Both the position numbers and the translations under genes were made by a program. Shown in pieces: positions 16,746 through 60,484 of a stretch of 64,000 nucleotides of DNA. The notes under the pieces are model-generated. The model ran no database searches, was not told the DNA's origin, and was given only the letters and a program-made list of their open reading frames with translations. Position 1 is the stretch's first letter; each line of letters starts with the position of its first letter. This DNA is from Oceanithermus profundus DSM 14977 (GTDB lineage Bacteria; Deinococcota; Deinococci; Deinococcales; Marinithermaceae), in NCBI RefSeq assembly GCF_000183745.1, contig NC_014761.1, positions 1,426,001 to 1,490,000 on the forward strand. The letters are read 5' to 3'.

Positions 16746-17093
16746 ATGAAACGAACCGGCTGGCTTCTGCTGGCGCTGCTGGTGCTGCTCGCGGCCTGCG
16801 CGCCCCGGGTCTGGTACAAGCCGGGCGCCACCAGCACCCAGCGCGACCGCGATCTGGAACTCTGCCGCTACGAGGCCCAGGCGCGCTTCGCCGAGGCCGT
16901 CCCCCCGCTCGGCGCCTTCCGCGCCTACGTGGACGTGCCCTTCGGCACGCCCTTCGAGCTGGAACGGCGCGTGGAGGAGGCGGCGCAGGACGCGGTGCGC
17001 GACGCCTACGAGGACTACCGGAACGCCTTCGTGCGCGGCTACGTCAGCGACTGCATGGAGGCCAAGGGGTACGTGCTGGTCGAGGAGCGCTGA
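16746..17093 (+). CDS. Small putative lipoprotein
   Basis: A 115-residue protein with a lipoprotein signal: MKRTGWLLLALLVLLAAC, with Cys 18 as the lipidation site. The mature part is charged with no motif I recognise; two conserved-looking cysteines (LCRYEA and SDCMEAKGY) could form a disulfide. The segment around the second Cys resembles small bacterial lipoproteins with a Cys-met-x-x-(K/R)-GY ending. It has AGGAGG upstream. Function unknown. Confidence 0.7.
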   Translation: MKRTGWLLLALLVLLAACAPRVWYKPGATSTQRDRDLELCRYEAQARFAEAVPPLGAFRAYVDVPFGTPFELERRVEEAAQDAVRDAYEDYRNAFVRGYVSDCMEAKGYVLVEER

Positions 17094-17100
17094 CCGGGCC

Positions 17101-17129
17101 TTGTGCTCGGCGGATGCGGCCGCTATAAT
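17101..17129 (+). promoter_or_regulatory. Promoter of the suf operon
   Basis: TTGTGC (17101-17106), a 17-base spacer and a perfect TATAAT (17124-17129) lie about 48 bases before sufC. A transcript from here would have a leader of about 40 bases containing GGAGGA before the ATG. Confidence 0.75.
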
Positions 17130-17162
17130 CCTGAGTGTATCGGTCGGGATTGTAGCGGCCGC
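17116..17162. promoter_or_regulatory. Large inverted repeat over the suf promoter -10 box (operator candidate)
   Basis: Left arm GCGGCCGCTATAATCC (17116-17131) and right arm GGATTGTAGCGGCCGC (17147-17162) are complementary at 15 of 16 positions across a 15-base centre. The left arm contains the -10 box and lies upstream of the expected transcript start, so it acts as DNA, not as an RNA hairpin. A dimeric iron-sulfur or redox regulator (Rrf2/IscR or SufR type) is a reasonable guess for the ligand, but no such gene is in the window. Confidence 0.7.
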
Positions 17163-17176
17163 AGCATGGAGGAAGC

Positions 17177-17926
<750 letters not shown>

Positions 17927-17934
17927 GAGGCCGC

Positions 17935-19344
17935 ATGAGCGAAGCCGAACTCAAGCACATCGCCGAAGACTACAAATGGGGGTTCGCCGACGACGTCGAG
18001 CCCGAGCTGAAGCTCAAGGGGCTGTCCGAAGACGTGGTGCGGGCGATCTCCGAGGCCAAGGGCGAACCCGGGTGGCTGCTCGAGTTCCGCCTGAAGGCGC
18101 TGGAGATCTACTTCCAGAAGCCCTGGCCCACCTGGGGCCCGGACCTGAGCGAGCTGCGCCGGCAGATGGGCGACTTCTACTACTACGTCAAGCCCCCCGT
18201 GCGCGACGAGGCCCGCAGCTGGGACGAGGTCCCCGACGAGATCCGCCGCACCTACGAGAAGCTGGGCATCCCCGAGGCCGAGCAGAAGGTGCTCGCCGGC
18301 GTCGGCGCCCAGTACGACTCCGAGATGGTCTACCACTCCATCAAGGAGGAGCTCGAGAAGAAGGGCGTGATCTTTAAATCGATCGAGGACGGCATCAAGG
18401 AGCACGAAGAGCTGTTCCGCCGCTACTTCGCGAAGGTCGTGCCCCCCACCGACAACAAGTTCGCCGCCCTCAACTCGGCGCTCTTCTCGGGCGGATCCTT
18501 CGTCTACGTGCCCCCGGGGGTCGACGTGGAGGTGCCGCTGCAGGCCTACTTCCGCGTCAACACCGAGGGCTTCGGCCAGTTCGAGCGCACCCTGATCATC
18601 ATCGACAAGGGCGCCAAGGCCCACTACATCGAGGGCTGCACCGCGCCCATCTACACCACCGAGGCGCTGCACACCGGCGTGATCGAGATCGTGGTGATGG
18701 AAGGGGCCGAGAGCCGCTACACCACGATCCAGAACTGGCCGGTGAACATGTACAACCTGGTCACCCAGCGCGCCCTGGTGCACGAGAACGCCTACCACAT
18801 GTGGCTCGACGGCAACCTGGGCTCCAAGGTGACGATGAAGTACCCCTCCTCGGTCCTGAAGGGCCGGGGCGCGCGCAGCGAGATCCTCTCGATCGCCTTC
18901 GCCGGCGACGGCCAGCACCTCGACACCGGCGGCAAGCTGATCTTCGCCGCGCCCGACACCTCGGGCTCGATCGTCTCGAAGTCGATCTCCAAGGGCGAGG
19001 GGCGCAGCAGCTACCGCGGCCTCATCAAGGTGCCCCAGAAGGCCGAGCGCGCCAAGGTGAACGTCGAGTGCGACGCGCTGCTGATCAACGAGGCCTCGAA
19101 GACCGACACCTACCCCTACATGGAGATCGCCAGCGAGACCGCCAGCGTGGGCCACGAGGCCACGGTGAGCCGGCTGGCCGACGACCAGATCTTCTACCTG
19201 ACCACCCGCGGCATCCCCGAAGACGAGGCGGCGGCGCTGATCGTGCGCGGCTTCATCGAACCGGTCGCCAAGGAGCTGCCGCTCGAGTTCGCCGTCGAGC
19301 TCAACCGCCTGATCGAGCTCGAGATGGAAGGGTCGGTGGGCTAG
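17935..19344 (+). CDS. sufB: Fe-S assembly scaffold protein SufB
   Basis: This 469-residue protein is the cluster-building subunit of the SufBC2D complex. It contains the beta-helix core with IIIDKGAKAHYIEGCTAPIY, KYPSSVLKGRGARSEILSIAFAG and NVECDALLINEASKTDTYPY, all conserved in SufB. The length is usual. It is directly followed by sufD (TAG then ATG, no spacer). Confidence 0.97.
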   Translation: MSEAELKHIAEDYKWGFADDVEPELKLKGLSEDVVRAISEAKGEPGWLLEFRLKALEIYFQKPWPTWGPDLSELRRQMGDFYYYVKPPVRDEARSWDEVPDEIRRTYEKLGIPEAEQKVLAGVGAQYDSEMVYHSIKEELEKKGVIFKSIEDGIKEHEELFRRYFAKVVPPTDNKFAALNSALFSGGSFVYVPPGVDVEVPLQAYFRVNTEGFGQFERTLIIIDKGAKAHYIEGCTAPIYTTEALHTGVIEIVVMEGAESRYTTIQNWPVNMYNLVTQRALVHENAYHMWLDGNLGSKVTMKYPSSVLKGRGARSEILSIAFAGDGQHLDTGGKLIFAAPDTSGSIVSKSISKGEGRSSYRGLIKVPQKAERAKVNVECDALLINEASKTDTYPYMEIASETASVGHEATVSRLADDQIFYLTTRGIPEDEAAALIVRGFIEPVAKELPLEFAVELNRLIELEMEGSVG

Positions 19345-20670
19345 ATGAACGAGACCGTGACCTCCCTTTCGCTGGAGAGCCTGCGCCGGCGCTCGAAGCA
19401 GCGGGGCGAGCCCGCCTGGCTGGCGGCCGCGCGCGAGCGCGCCTGGCGGATCTTCGAGCGGCTGGACTGGCCCACCCGCAAGAACGAGGCCTGGCGCTAT
19501 ACCGACCTCGACCCCGCCTGGTTCGCGCTCGAACTCGAGGAGGCCCGGCCCGCCGAGCTGCGCCAGCGGGACGAACTGCCGCGCGCGGTGCGCGAGCGGC
19601 TGGCGGAAAGCGACGCCGAGGCCGCGCTGGTCTTCGAGGACGGCCGCCTCGTCTACGCCCACCTGCCCGCCGAGCTGGGCGCCAAGGGCGTCGTCCTCAG
19701 CGACCTCGCCGGCGCGCTCGAAGACCACGGCGAGCACGTGGAAGGCGCGCTCTACCAGGCGGTCACCGAGACCGGCCTGCAGGGCCCCGAAGACAAACTC
19801 GCCGCCCTGAACGCGGCGCTGTGGGGCTACGGGGCCTTCGTCTACGTGCCCGCCGGGGTGACGCTCGAAGCGCCGATCGGCGTCTTCCACTACGCCGCCC
19901 GTCCCGGAAAGCTGAGCCTAAGCCGCACGCTGATTGTCCTGGACGACAACGCCGAGGCGACCTTCATCGAGGAGTACCTCTCGGAAGCGCACGCGCGCAC
20001 CCACGTGGCCACGGGCGAACTGCTCCTCCGGCCCGGCGCCCGCCTGCGCCACGCCGGCGTGCAGACCTGGGGCGCGGGGGTGCGCCACTTCCACCGCCAG
20101 CGGGCGCTGCTCGAGCGCGACGCGGTGCTGCTCGACCTGGCCGTCAACCTTGGCGGCACCCTCGCCCGCACCGAGGTGGCCAGCGAGCTCGTGGGGCCCG
20201 GAGCCGACTCGGAGATGCTGGGGGTCTACTTCGCCGGACGGGACCAGCACCTCGACCACTACACCACCCAGCACCACGTGAGCGCTCAGGCGCGTTCCGA
20301 CGTCTACTACAAGGGCGCGGCCGCGGCGAACGGGCGGGTCGTCTACCAGGGGCTGATCCAGCTCGAGCCCACGGCGCAGAAGACCGACGCCTACCAGACC
20401 AACCGCAACCTGCTGCTCAGCCGCGAGGCCCGGGCCGAGAGCGTGCCCCAGCTGGAGATCGCCGCCAACGACGTGCGCTGCAGCCACGGCTCCTCCACCG
20501 CGCCGGTCGACGAGGAGCAGCTCTTCTACCTGGCCACGCGCGGCATCCCCCGCGCCCAGGCGCAGCAGCTGCTCGTCGCCGCCTTCCTGGAAGAGGTGCT
20601 GGGGCGGGTGCCGCTCGAGAAGCTGCGCCTCCACATCGCCCGGATCATCGAAGAGCGGCTGGCCGGCTGA
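19345..20670 (+). CDS. sufD: Fe-S assembly protein SufD
   Basis: SufD is the partner of SufB in the SufBC2D complex. The 441-residue protein shows the family pattern: WPTRKNEAWRYTDLDP at the N-terminus, RTLIVLDDNAEATFIEEYL, and QTNRNLLLSREARAESVPQLEI with CSHGSSTAPVDEEQLFYLATRGI near the C-terminus. A perfect 24-base palindrome separates it from sufS. Confidence 0.95.
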   Translation: MNETVTSLSLESLRRRSKQRGEPAWLAAARERAWRIFERLDWPTRKNEAWRYTDLDPAWFALELEEARPAELRQRDELPRAVRERLAESDAEAALVFEDGRLVYAHLPAELGAKGVVLSDLAGALEDHGEHVEGALYQAVTETGLQGPEDKLAALNAALWGYGAFVYVPAGVTLEAPIGVFHYAARPGKLSLSRTLIVLDDNAEATFIEEYLSEAHARTHVATGELLLRPGARLRHAGVQTWGAGVRHFHRQRALLERDAVLLDLAVNLGGTLARTEVASELVGPGADSEMLGVYFAGRDQHLDHYTTQHHVSAQARSDVYYKGAAAANGRVVYQGLIQLEPTAQKTDAYQTNRNLLLSREARAESVPQLEIAANDVRCSHGSSTAPVDEEQLFYLATRGIPRAQAQQLLVAAFLEEVLGRVPLEKLRLHIARIIEERLAG

Positions 20671-20709: not shown

Positions 20710-20734
20710 TAGACTAACGCCAGAGGTGAACCCC

Positions 20735-21952
20735 ATGTTCGACCCCGAAGCGGTCAAGCGCGACTTTCCCATCTTCGAACACCACGAAGGCCTCGTCTTC
20801 CTCGACTCCGCCGCCAGCAGCCAGAAGCCGCGGGCGGTGACGGAGGCGATGACGCGTTACTACGAACACGACCACGCCAACGTCCACCGCGGCGCCTACG
20901 GGCTCTCGATGCGCGCCACCGAGGCCTACGAGACCGCGCGCCGGCAGATGGCGCGTTTCCTCGGCGCGGAAGCGGACGAGGTCGTCTTCGTGCGCAACGC
21001 CACCGAGGCGCTCAACCTGGTGGCCTACGCCTGGGGGCTCGAGCACCTGCGCGACGGCGACGAGGTCCTGGTCACCGAGATGGAGCACCACGCCAACCTG
21101 GTGCCCTGGCAGCTGGTGGCGGCCCGCACCGGCGCCCGCATCAAGGCCGTGCCCCTCACCGCGGAAGGCCGGCTCGACCTGGACGCCTTCGAGGCCCTGC
21201 TTTCGGAGCGCACCCGCGTCCTCGCCGTCACCCAGATGTCGAACGTACTGGGCACGGTCAACCCGGTGGCGGAGCTGGCCGCCGCGGCGCGCGAGCGCGG
21301 GGCGCTGGTGGTGGTCGACGGGGCCCAGGCCGCTCCCCACCTGCCCGTGCGGGTGCGGGAACTGAACGCCGACTTCTACGCCCTTTCGGGCCACAAGATG
21401 CTCGGCCCCACGGGCGCGGGCGTGCTCTGGGGGCGGCGCGAGGCGCTGGCCGACCTGCCCCCCTTCCTGGGCGGCGGCAGCATGATCGAGGAGGTCACGA
21501 TCGAGCGCTCCACCTACGCCCCGCCGCCGCAACGCTTCGAGGCCGGAACCCCGGCGATCGCCGAGGCCATCGGCCTGGGGGCGGCGGCCGACTACCTGAT
21601 GCGGCTGGGCATGGAGAACGTCTGGGCCCACGACCGGGCGCTGCTCGAATACGCCCTCGAGCGGCTGGCCGAGGTGCCCGACCTGCACCTCTACGGGCCC
21701 CGCGGCGCGGACCGGGGCGGGGTGATCGCCTTCAACCTGGGCCGCCTCCACCCCCACGACCTCGCCACCGCCCTGGACGAGCGCGGCGTGGCCGTGCGCA
21801 CCGGGCACCACTGCGCCCAACCGCTGCACCGGCGGCTGGGGGTCGCGGCCACCGCCCGCGCGAGCTTCTACGTCTACAACACCCCCACCGACGTGGACCG
21901 GCTGGTGGAGGCGCTGCTGGAGGCCCGGAAGTTTTTCGCGGACTGGTTGTAG
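20735..21952 (+). CDS. sufS: Cysteine desulfurase SufS
   Basis: SufS takes sulfur from L-cysteine as a persulfide and passes it to SufU for cluster building. The 405-residue PLP enzyme has FLDSAASSQKP near the N-terminus, NATEALNLVAY, TEMEHHANLVPWQ, the PLP lysine in LSGHKMLGPTGAGVLWG and the active Cys in RTGHHCAQPLHRRLGV. I favour ATG 20735 because AGAGG lies about 8 bases upstream; an in-frame GTG at 20726 is possible and has TAGACT 10 bases before it. Confidence 0.95.
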   Translation: MFDPEAVKRDFPIFEHHEGLVFLDSAASSQKPRAVTEAMTRYYEHDHANVHRGAYGLSMRATEAYETARRQMARFLGAEADEVVFVRNATEALNLVAYAWGLEHLRDGDEVLVTEMEHHANLVPWQLVAARTGARIKAVPLTAEGRLDLDAFEALLSERTRVLAVTQMSNVLGTVNPVAELAAAARERGALVVVDGAQAAPHLPVRVRELNADFYALSGHKMLGPTGAGVLWGRREALADLPPFLGGGSMIEEVTIERSTYAPPPQRFEAGTPAIAEAIGLGAAADYLMRLGMENVWAHDRALLEYALERLAEVPDLHLYGPRGADRGGVIAFNLGRLHPHDLATALDERGVAVRTGHHCAQPLHRRLGVAATARASFYVYNTPTDVDRLVEALLEARKFFADWL

Positions 21953-22001: not shown

Positions 22002-22433
22002 ATGAGCCTGCTCGAAGAACTCTACCGTGAGACGATCATGCAGCACGCCCAGCGGCCGCACAACTTCGGCCCGCTGGAGGGCGCGACCGTGAAGGTCGGC
22101 GGCCACAACCCCAGCTGCGGCGACCGGATCGAGCTCTACCTGAAGGTCGAGGACGGCCGCATCGCCGAGGCCCGCTTCACCGGCCACGGCTGCGCCATCA
22201 GCCAGAGCTCGGCCAGCATGATGACCGACCTGATCCGCGGCAAGACGCTCGACGAGGCGCTGGAGCTGGAAAAGAAGTTCAAGGCCATGGTGGTCGAGGG
22301 CGAACCCCCCGCACCCGAACTGGGGGACCTCAGCGCCCTGCAGGGGGTAGCCAAGCTGCACGCGCGCGTCAAGTGCGCCACGCTGGCCTGGAACGCCCTG
22401 GAGCAGGCGATCGAGGAAGTGCGCCCGTCATGA
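22002..22433 (+). CDS. sufU: Fe-S assembly sulfur acceptor SufU
   Basis: SufU receives sulfur from SufS through a zinc-bound cysteine site. The 143-residue protein has Cys 39 and Asp 41 (NPSCGD), Cys 64 (GHGCAISQSS) and Cys 125 (KCATLAW), the zinc/sulfur ligand set of SufU. The segment between Cys 64 and Cys 125 carries the insertion that separates SufU from IscU. Its stop overlaps the ATG of a small downstream gene. Confidence 0.93.
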   Translation: MSLLEELYRETIMQHAQRPHNFGPLEGATVKVGGHNPSCGDRIELYLKVEDGRIAEARFTGHGCAISQSSASMMTDLIRGKTLDEALELEKKFKAMVVEGEPPAPELGDLSALQGVAKLHARVKCATLAWNALEQAIEEVRPS

Positions 22434-34112: not shown

Positions 34113-34147
34113 GGCCGCCTGGCCGCGCAATGCGCGGCCAGGCGGCC
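34113..34147. terminator. Bidirectional terminator between narK and gpsA
   Basis: Arms GGCCGCCTGGCCGCGC (34113-34128) and GCGCGGCCAGGCGGCC (34132-34147) are perfectly complementary over 16 bases with the loop AAT. It fills the gap between the convergent genes; the gpsA stop codon begins at the next base. There is no T-tract on either side. Confidence 0.75.
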
Positions 34148-35125
34148 TCATTCGGGCTTGGGCTCGCGGCGCATCAGCTCCTCGAGCACCCGCCGCGGGT
34201 CGTCCCCGCGGTAGACGACCCGCCACACGGCCTCGGTGATGGGGAGCTCCTCGCCGCTGCGCGCCGCCCACTCGTGCAGCGCCGCGGTGGTGTGCACCCC
34301 CTCGACGACCTGCCGGCCCGTTTCCAGGTCGGCCAGAGTCGCCCCGCGCGCGAAGCGCTCGCCCGCGCTGCGGTTGCGCGACAGCGGGCTCATGGCCGTG
34401 GCCATCAGGTCGCCGAGGCCCGAGAGGCCGTAGAAGGTCTCCACCGCACCGCCGTGCGCGGTGCCGAAGCGCACCATCTCGCGGAGGCCCCGGGTGAGCA
34501 GCGCCGCCTTGGCGTTGTCGCCCAGCTCGAGCCCGTCGGCCATGCCCGCCGCCAGCGCCATCACGTTCTTGAGCGCCCCTCCGAGTTCCACCCCGGCGAC
34601 GTCGGGGGAGGTGTAGACGCGGAAGGTGGGGCCGCCCAACGCCCGCTGCACCTGTGCGGCAAGGTCGGCGTCCTCGCTGGCCACCACCGCCGCCGCCGGC
34701 AGCCCACGGGCCACCTCGAGGGCCAGGTTGGGCCCCGAAAGCACGGCCACCCGCGCTCCGGGGGCGGCCCTGCGCATGATCTGGGAGATGCGCAGCAGCC
34801 GCCCCTCGGCAAAGCGCACCCCCTTCACCGCCGACACGTAGGCCCCTACGGGGGGCATCCCGGCCAGCACCGCCCGCACCCCCTTGGCGGGGACGGCGAC
34901 CAGCACGAATGCCGCTCCCTCGACGGCACGCTCGGCGGTGCAGACGGGCCGCACGCCTTCGGGAAGACGGACCCCCGGCAGGTACGCCGCGTTCTCGCGG
35001 GTGGCCAGGAGCGCCTCGGCGAGCTCGCACCGCCGCGACCAGAGCGCGACCCGGTGCCCGCTCCGCGCCAGCAGCACGGCCAGCGCCGTACCCCAACCCC
35101 CGGCCCCAAGGACGGCGACGTTCAC
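34148..35125 (-). CDS. gpsA: Glycerol-3-phosphate dehydrogenase [NAD(P)+]
   Basis: GpsA reduces dihydroxyacetone phosphate to sn-glycerol-3-phosphate for lipid synthesis. The 325-residue protein has the dinucleotide-binding [34 protein letters not shown], the catalytic-Lys region [17 protein letters not shown] and the [11 protein letters not shown] segment. It starts with GTG, 4 bases after the upstream membrane-protein gene, and seems to be the last gene of a pyrF-pyrE-SpoIIM-like-gpsA run. Confidence 0.96.
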
Positions 35126-59343: not shown

Positions 59344-59410
59344 TTTCTTTTGATTTTGCTAGGGACAATTACCCCGGGAAATCCTGAGCGCGACGCTTTA
59401 ATTTAGGAGC

Positions 59411-60484
59411 ATGCGCCCGGACTTTGACCGCTACCCGTTCCTGGTCGCCTGGGAGATGACCCACGCCTGCGATCTGGCCTGCAAGCACTGCCGGGCCAGC
59501 GCCGAGCCCGACCCGCTTCCCGGGGAGATCACCACCGAGGAGGCCTTCCGCTTCCTCGAGGAGATGGCCACCTACAAGCCCAAGCCCATCCTCCTCCCCA
59601 CCGGAGGCGATCCGCTCAAACGGCACGACCTCTGGGAAATCCTGGAGAAGGCCCGCGAGCTGGGGATCAAGATCGGGATCACCCCGGCGGTCACCCCGCT
59701 CTTGACCCACGAAGTGATCGACCGCTTCAAGGAGCTCGACGTGCACGCCATGGCCGTGAGCCTCGACGGGGCCAGCGCCGAGACCCACGACGAGTTCCGC
59801 GGCGTCCCCGGCACCTTCGAGCTGGCGGTGGACGCCCTCCGCTACGCCCGCTCGATCGGCCTCTCGACCCAGATCAACACCACGGTCACCAAGCAGACGA
59901 AACCCGAGCTGCCGGGACTCGCCGATCTGGGCCGCGACCTGGGCATCTCCGCTTGGGAGGTCTTCTTCTTGGTACCGGTGGGCCGCGGCGCCCTGTTGCA
60001 GCAGCTCAGCGCCGAGGAGTACGAAGAGGTGCTGCGCTGGCTCTACCAGGTCTCCAAGACCCACAAGCTGCACATCCGCACCACCGAGGCGCCCCACTTC
60101 CGCCGGGTGGTCATCCAGGAACGGATGAAGAGTGCGGACGCCGACCACGCCCTGGTGCAGAACAAGCGCGGCGTCCACATGCACGACGCCTACGGCTTCG
60201 TCTTCATCAGCTCGCAGGGTGAGGTCTTCCCCTCGGGCTTCCTGGCGATGAGCGCGGGCAACATCAAGGAGCGCAGCCTGCTCGACATCTACCAAAACTC
60301 CGAGCTCTTCCGCAAACTGCGTGACCGCAGCTACCTGAAGGGCAAGTGCCGCGTCTGCGAGTTCGGCAACGTCTGCTGGGGCAGCCGCGCCCGCGCCTGG
60401 GCCGAGACCGGCGACCCCTTCGAGTCCGAGACCCGCTGCGCCTACGTGCCCGAGGCCTGGAAGGCCGAGGTGGCGGGGGACTGA
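59411..60484 (+). CDS. Radical SAM protein with SPASM-like C-terminus
   Basis: A 357-residue radical SAM enzyme: the 4Fe-4S motif CDLACKHC near residue 17, GGDPLKRHDL, and a C-terminal Cys cluster CRVCEFGNVCWGSRARAWAETGDP with a further Cys in TRCAYVPE. This layout is shared by AhbD/NirJ-like heme-modifying proteins and the TIGR04053 group. In a nitrate-respiring organism a role in heme d1 or heme synthesis is possible, but not shown; peptide modification is also possible. TAATTT and AGGAGC precede the ATG. Confidence 0.8.
   Translation: MRPDFDRYPFLVAWEMTHACDLACKHCRASAEPDPLPGEITTEEAFRFLEEMATYKPKPILLPTGGDPLKRHDLWEILEKARELGIKIGITPAVTPLLTHEVIDRFKELDVHAMAVSLDGASAETHDEFRGVPGTFELAVDALRYARSIGLSTQINTTVTKQTKPELPGLADLGRDLGISAWEVFFLVPVGRGALLQQLSAEEYEEVLRWLYQVSKTHKLHIRTTEAPHFRRVVIQERMKSADADHALVQNKRGVHMHDAYGFVFISSQGEVFPSGFLAMSAGNIKERSLLDIYQNSELFRKLRDRSYLKGKCRVCEFGNVCWGSRARAWAETGDPFESETRCAYVPEAWKAEVAGD

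Follow-up and report, generated by a model that had tools for sequence, protein, structure and literature searches.

A conserved IscR type-1-like palindrome over the -10 box and start site of the suf promoter in Oceanithermus profundus, a probable operator of an unlinked Rrf2-family protein

The window analysed here is a 64-kb stretch of the chromosome of Oceanithermus profundus DSM 14977 (genome G000, positions 1426001-1490000); statements on the genome as a whole are based on pattern searches. It contains the genes sufCBDSU, which appear to form the main Fe-S assembly operon of O. profundus. The gene immediately upstream, on the same strand, encodes a lipoprotein and ends at 17093, 22 nt before a long inverted repeat that covers part of the suf promoter (Table 1). 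The putative -35 hexamer is a fair one but scored weakly in a simple promoter scan. The last three bases of the TATAAT box are also the first three of the 25-bp core of the repeat.

Table 1. Features of the suf promoter and operon and of a related site in the window (positions are those of the 64-kb window).
Feature	Position	Strand	Remarks
Putative -35, TTGTGC	17101..17106	+	17-nt spacer to the -10; TTGT/TTGC at the same spacing in sister species
Whole inverted repeat	17115..17163	none	20-nt arms 17115-17134 and 17144-17163, 18/20 paired; 9-nt centre, midpoint 17139
Outer left arm, TGCGGCCGCTAT	17115..17126	+	lineage-specific extension of the palindrome, kept in 4/6 Oceanithermus
-10 of suf promoter, TATAAT	17124..17129	+	invariant in 6/6 Oceanithermus
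Operator core, AATCCTGAGTGTATCGGTCGGGATT	17127..17151	none	IscR type-1-like, predicted Rrf2 site, about -9 to +16
Left half-site, AATCCTGAGT	17127..17136	+	rank 1 of ~128,000 positions, half-site matrix from other genera
Predicted transcription start	17136..17137	+	~7 nt past the -10, placed from the -10 position
Right half-site, AATCCCGACC	17142..17151	-	rank 2, same matrix trained on left halves only
Outer right arm, GTAGCGGCCGCA	17152..17163	+	lineage-specific, from sister-species comparison
Ribosome binding site of sufC, GGAGGA	17168..17173	+	sequence reading
sufC	17177..17926	+	TIGR01978, 344 bits
sufB	17935..19344	+	TIGR01980
sufD	19345..20670	+	TIGR01981
sufS	20726..21952	+	TIGR01979
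sufU	22002..22433	+	TIGR01994
Second site of the same kind, AATCCTGAGCGCGACGCTTTAATTT	59380..59404	+	half-site rank 3 in the window; directly before radical SAM/SPASM gene 59411-60484

The arms GCGGCCGCTATAATCC (17116-17131) and GGATTGTAGCGGCCGC (17147-17162) are complementary at 15 of their 16 positions, the sole mismatch falling within TATAAT/TACAAT. Direct reading of both arms thus bears out the initial annotation, which had described this pairing over the suf -10 box with the -10 in the left arm and the expected start site in the centre; TATAAT lies at 17124-17129 and the start is predicted at about 17136. The full repeat (17115-17163) reads TGCGGCCGCTATAATCCTGA gtgtatcgg TCGGGATTGTAGCGGCCGCA, and is the only one in the window with 18 of 20 positions paired and a loop of less than 25 nt. 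Three such repeats arose in 60 Markov shuffles, giving an expectation of approximately 0.05 per window of this composition. The symmetry is by itself moderately improbable, which is suggestive and not decisive; conservation and the half-site test described below render the palindrome secure.

The repeat occupies a single locus in the O. profundus genome. A genome search, a check that the initial annotation had proposed for the arm sequence, gave no zero-mismatch copy of GGATTNTAGCGGCC besides that at suf, and a dispersed REP-like palindromic repeat was rejected on account of this single occurrence. A further promoter, reading the other strand from the TACAAT of the right arm, was likewise rejected for want of an acceptable -35. 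No intrinsic terminator sites were identified between 16500 and 17400, and a T-run is absent from both strands; the repeat is therefore not an intrinsic terminator. Elsewhere in the window, at 34113-34148, a perfect GC-rich inverted repeat with 16-bp arms and no T-run directly follows a gene end and is probably a terminator-like hairpin.

Regions upstream of suf were taken from 61 genomes, six of which represent Oceanithermus species. The core (TATAATCCTGAG..TCGGTCGG) and the promoter are kept in all six, G004 showing minor changes. Four species (G000, G001, G002 and G004) retain the outer GCGGCC arms, to varying length, and G003 and G005 lack them; the repeat of G004 forms 15 perfect pairs about the same centre. 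Because all six species retain the core and only four the outer arms, the unit of conservation and, as judged from this comparison, of selection is the inner 25 bp (17127-17151) rather than the 16-bp arms. The initial annotation had regarded loss of the repeat from sister species that keep the promoter as evidence against it: the core has persisted in every species, and the outer arms have gone from two. The right GCGGCCG is the older of the two outer arms (Marinithermus has AATAAGCGGCCGG), and the left one was assembled stepwise within the genus. The outer GC-rich arms are a lineage-specific extension, perhaps without function; extension by template switching and added protein contacts both fit.

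The inner 25 bp resemble a known class of binding site. The core agrees with the published type-1 consensus for IscR, ATASYYGACTRWWWYAGTCRRSTAT (given in PMC6599224), at 19 of 25 positions (76%), the unique best place in 64 kb, with the next at 17. The footprinted IscR sites of Pseudomonas aeruginosa match the consensus at 68% (site A, AATCCTGAGTAATTTGATCGGTCTT) and 76% (site B) (PMC6599224), so that the O. profundus core matches it no less well than these sites; its left half AATCCTGAGT is identical to that of site A (PMC6599224). The spacing of the Oceanithermus element is YGA-N9-TCR, as in type-1 sites, and not GGA-N5-TCC. The earlier view that the repeat matches no known binding site does not hold for this inner part. 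Half-sites were ranked at every position of the window on both strands using a 10-nt matrix made from the left halves of 29 suf-promoter sites of other genera, the right arm being outside the training (ranks in Table 1). A 25-nt matrix seeded only with the suf promoters of other genera yielded one strong match per Oceanithermus promoter, at the palindrome core, with a score of 15.1 in O. profundus and -11 for the next best place.

Most Deinococcota suf promoters carry a homologous site, usually over the -35. In Thermus, Meiothermus, Marinithermus, Trueperaceae and Deinococcales a 25-bp sequence such as AATCCCGACTAAATCACTAGACTTT is found upstream of sufC. For 63 dereplicated Deinococcota suf promoters the mean match to the type-1 consensus was 17.14, higher than for any of 300 palindromic consensi made by shuffling (average 15.2, highest 17.0), a comparison that is indicative only because the genomes are related. 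Some Trueperaceae sites are near-canonical (ATACCCGACTAGATTACTCGACATT, 21/25); certain Trueperaceae suf promoters gave no recognisable site in the 25-nt matrix search, and Rrf2 is retained there. In Thermus and its relatives the right half of the site also serves as the -35, lying 17 nt ahead of the -10, and the similarity outside Oceanithermus may be partly that of the promoter because of this overlap. Oceanithermus has a separate -35 (TTGTGC/TTGT..), and its operator spans the last three bases of the -10 to approximately +16. Most likely the operator is homologous in Deinococcota and was shifted onto the -10 and start site in Oceanithermus, where the right half can be symmetrical since it has no double duty as a -35.

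Only one true Rrf2 gene was found in O. profundus, at chromosome positions 941829-942272 and approximately 0.5 Mb from suf, in line with the initial annotation, which had noted the absence of an Rrf2 or SufR gene nearby. A second Rrf2 match at 2076136 was rejected as a GntR-type regulator. The Rrf2 protein (P0001; 147 aa; PF02082, 134 bits) carries ISQHYLEQ in the recognition helix, an SVRGARGGYRL wing and the cysteine motif C-x6-C-x5-C, and aligns with the solved structures of CymR and IscR. The orthologs examined, one from each genome, all have YLEQ and the three cysteines; in a single one the first two cysteines are one residue closer together. YLEQ is shared by CymR, and specificity is therefore not fixed by this motif. 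The protein scored 97 bits against the NCBIfam IscR equivalog TIGR02010 (cut-off 207.55) and 64.3 bits against the RirA equivalog (cut-off 193), and did not reach the cut-off of the NCBIfam CymR equivalog; it is named Rrf2 or IscR-like rather than IscR because it falls below the IscR cut-off. A clear type-1-like site was not found upstream of O. profundus rrf2, and the 80 loci examined from other phyla included no adjacent rrf2-suf pair, an arrangement that would have linked the motif to its regulator. SufR was above its cut-off in none of the 61 genomes. O. profundus encodes an ArsR-type regulator resembling SufR, with cysteines clustered at its C-terminus (G000 C2:865477-866052), which scored 66.8 against the SufR cut-off of 178.8.

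We consider it likely, from these comparisons, that the palindrome core is the operator of the only Rrf2-family protein of O. profundus, an IscR/RirA-like sensor that would derepress sufCBDSU on cluster loss. The C-x6-C-x5-C motif of the protein is predicted to ligate an Fe-S cluster. With clusters plentiful, a cluster-loaded dimer would occupy both half-sites, AATCCTGAGT and AATCCCGACC, from about -9 to +16 and occlude RNA polymerase at the -10 and start site; under iron or cluster shortage the cluster would be lost, the dimer would leave and sufCBDSU would be transcribed. The direction of regulation, with the cluster-loaded form repressing and cluster loss derepressing, is proposed by analogy with IscR (PMC6599224, PMC9973013) and RirA (PMC6748827). 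The initial annotation had suggested a protein site acting on the DNA and able to shut the suf promoter, a suggestion to which the conserved type-1-like core over the -10 and start site lends support. The operator would thus be of a known kind; what is unusual is its position on the -10 and start site and the unlinked regulator gene.

The main reason for not placing this reading higher is a second palindrome, found at the start site in the majority of suf promoters from other genera (CTTACTGCGAACGGGTCGCAGTAAG in Thermus, TTAGGAATCATTCCTAA or TCGGAACGAGTCC elsewhere). The Thermus-type form CTTACTGCGAnnnnnTCGCAGTAAG was essentially suf-specific in the genomes tested with that pattern, and GGAAnnnTTCC or TGAGAATGATTCTCA versions lie upstream of rrf2 in several Deinococcota families (suf promoters L017, L021-L060; rrf2 promoters L061, L065, L068, L090, L240, L241, L243, L244, L247, L251, L252, L254). 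Present at both suf and rrf2, it is possibly the real Rrf2 site; its odd centre suggests, as a lead only, a Fur-family protein. The Oceanithermus palindrome itself might be the operator of another regulator, either a Fur-family protein or the SufR-like ArsR-type protein, which we regard as rather unlikely. The second palindrome occupies the same place at other suf start sites as the Oceanithermus element, part of which (TCGGTCG) aligns with Marinithermus; it recurs before rrf2, and O. profundus encodes a SufR-like protein bearing C-terminal cysteines. However, the Oceanithermus element has the spacing YGA-N9-TCR and not GGA-N5-TCC, a pattern search for the second palindrome in O. profundus gave nothing, and the SufR-like protein falls well below the SufR cut-off and was not detected in the 98% complete genome G003, where the operator is kept.

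It is highly improbable that the repeat acts as RNA, whereby read-through transcripts from the upstream lipoprotein gene would fold into a hairpin of 20 bp with a role in insulating or processing the transcript. The strand fold is indeed very stable (-46 kcal/mol for 80 nt, z -6.3) and a gene does end on the same strand just ahead of the repeat, but the hairpin has no T-run for an intrinsic terminator, a transcript from the predicted start would lack the left arm, and two species have lost the strong outer stem and others have it in altered form, whereas the type-1 half-sites persist. We give very little credence to the long symmetry being a by-product, in which template switching lengthened a short operator palindrome outward and left the outer arms meaningless. 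Stepwise changes in arm length among species, and a right GCGGCCG that predates its left partner (in Marinithermus), would be expected of such a process; it applies to the outer arms alone, however, and the symmetry in four species and two changes in G004 that perfect the arms could reflect selection.

The core resembles the IscR type-1 operators of the Escherichia coli and P. aeruginosa iscR promoters in its 25-bp palindrome with half-sites of 10 and 5 between, its YGA-N9-TCR core and its left half-site shared with site A, and the proposed system as a whole does so in its predicted target, Fe-S assembly genes, and its candidate Rrf2 protein with YLEQ and three cysteines. In contrast to IscR systems, the O. 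profundus site lies over the -10 and start site rather than in the -35 region or upstream, its palindrome is extended outward by GC-rich arms, the regulator gene is unlinked to the assembly genes and has no clear site in its own promoter, and the protein has C-x6-C where IscR has C-x5-C. The IRO box has the spacing TGA-N9-TCR. This spacing is also that of the O. profundus core and, as in the RirA/IRO box and Iron-Rhodo box regulons of Alphaproteobacteria, a single Rrf2-type regulator may be common to suf and iron uptake; the differences are the phylum, the few sites in O. profundus and the Fur-like boxes beside the iron-uptake sites. SufR of cyanobacteria and actinobacteria is likewise an Fe-S sensing repressor of suf but belongs to another protein family than Rrf2. 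RisR of Myxococcus xanthus is an Rrf2 regulator that binds GAC-N7-GTC at suf and isc (PMC9973013). It shares with the system proposed here a suf-regulating Rrf2 protein and an imperfect palindrome of equal spacing that overlaps the promoter (PMC9973013), whereas risR adjoins suf and O. profundus rrf2 does not.

The second site in the window, AATCCTGAGCGCGACGCTTTAATTT, is kept in G001 (C1:158654-158678) and G002 (C157:3875-3899), making three Oceanithermus species in all. The gene that it precedes belongs to TIGR04053 and is related to AhbD of haem synthesis. A related box, AAWTCCGASCGGAATACTTGACWTT, precedes FTR1 in O. profundus, and boxes of this type precede FbpA-type binding proteins in several genera and, in Thermus or Meiothermus, FeoA, a haem-degrading monooxygenase and a siderophore-binding protein. 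With one mismatch allowed, the box gave 8 strand-hits in G000 versus 1 for a reversed control pattern. Its right half includes the -35 (TTGACA/T) and its left half lies outside the promoter element; its likeness to the suf site is partly that of a promoter because of the -35 in the right half. Since related sites precede iron-uptake genes, a RirA/IscR-like regulon of suf and iron uptake is suggested. A wider scheme is offered tentatively, the balance lying somewhat against it: the one unlinked Rrf2 protein may regulate iron and Fe-S clusters across the whole phylum Deinococcota in the manner of RirA, acting on suf, the radical SAM haem-type enzyme and iron uptake and layered with a Fur-family protein on suf and rrf2, and the move of the Oceanithermus suf operator from the -35 to the start may have turned a two-input promoter into a one-site switch.

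No description of an Rrf2 regulator of suf, or of any Fe-S regulator, in Deinococcota was found in the literature searched, the predictions of RegPrecise being outside its scope. The analysis points to a likely regulator of suf, and to an operator open to experimental test, in a phylum whose bacteria withstand radiation and heat, and suggests that the IscR-type recognition code extends to Deinococcota. The suf promoter of Oceanithermus would illustrate how an operator can slide along a promoter in nature, and the proposed link with iron uptake is now directly testable in Thermus thermophilus.

At the iron-uptake genes of Thermales (L099, L102, L104, L137-L149) AAWTCCGASCGGAATACTTGACWTT lies over the -35, and in many cases a Fur-like box, GAACGRTTATCGTTC, is found directly upstream of it. 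The same box is found in O. profundus before a gene for a small protein of 45 aa (G000 C2:1793023-1793047; L098), and is kept there in G001 and G002.
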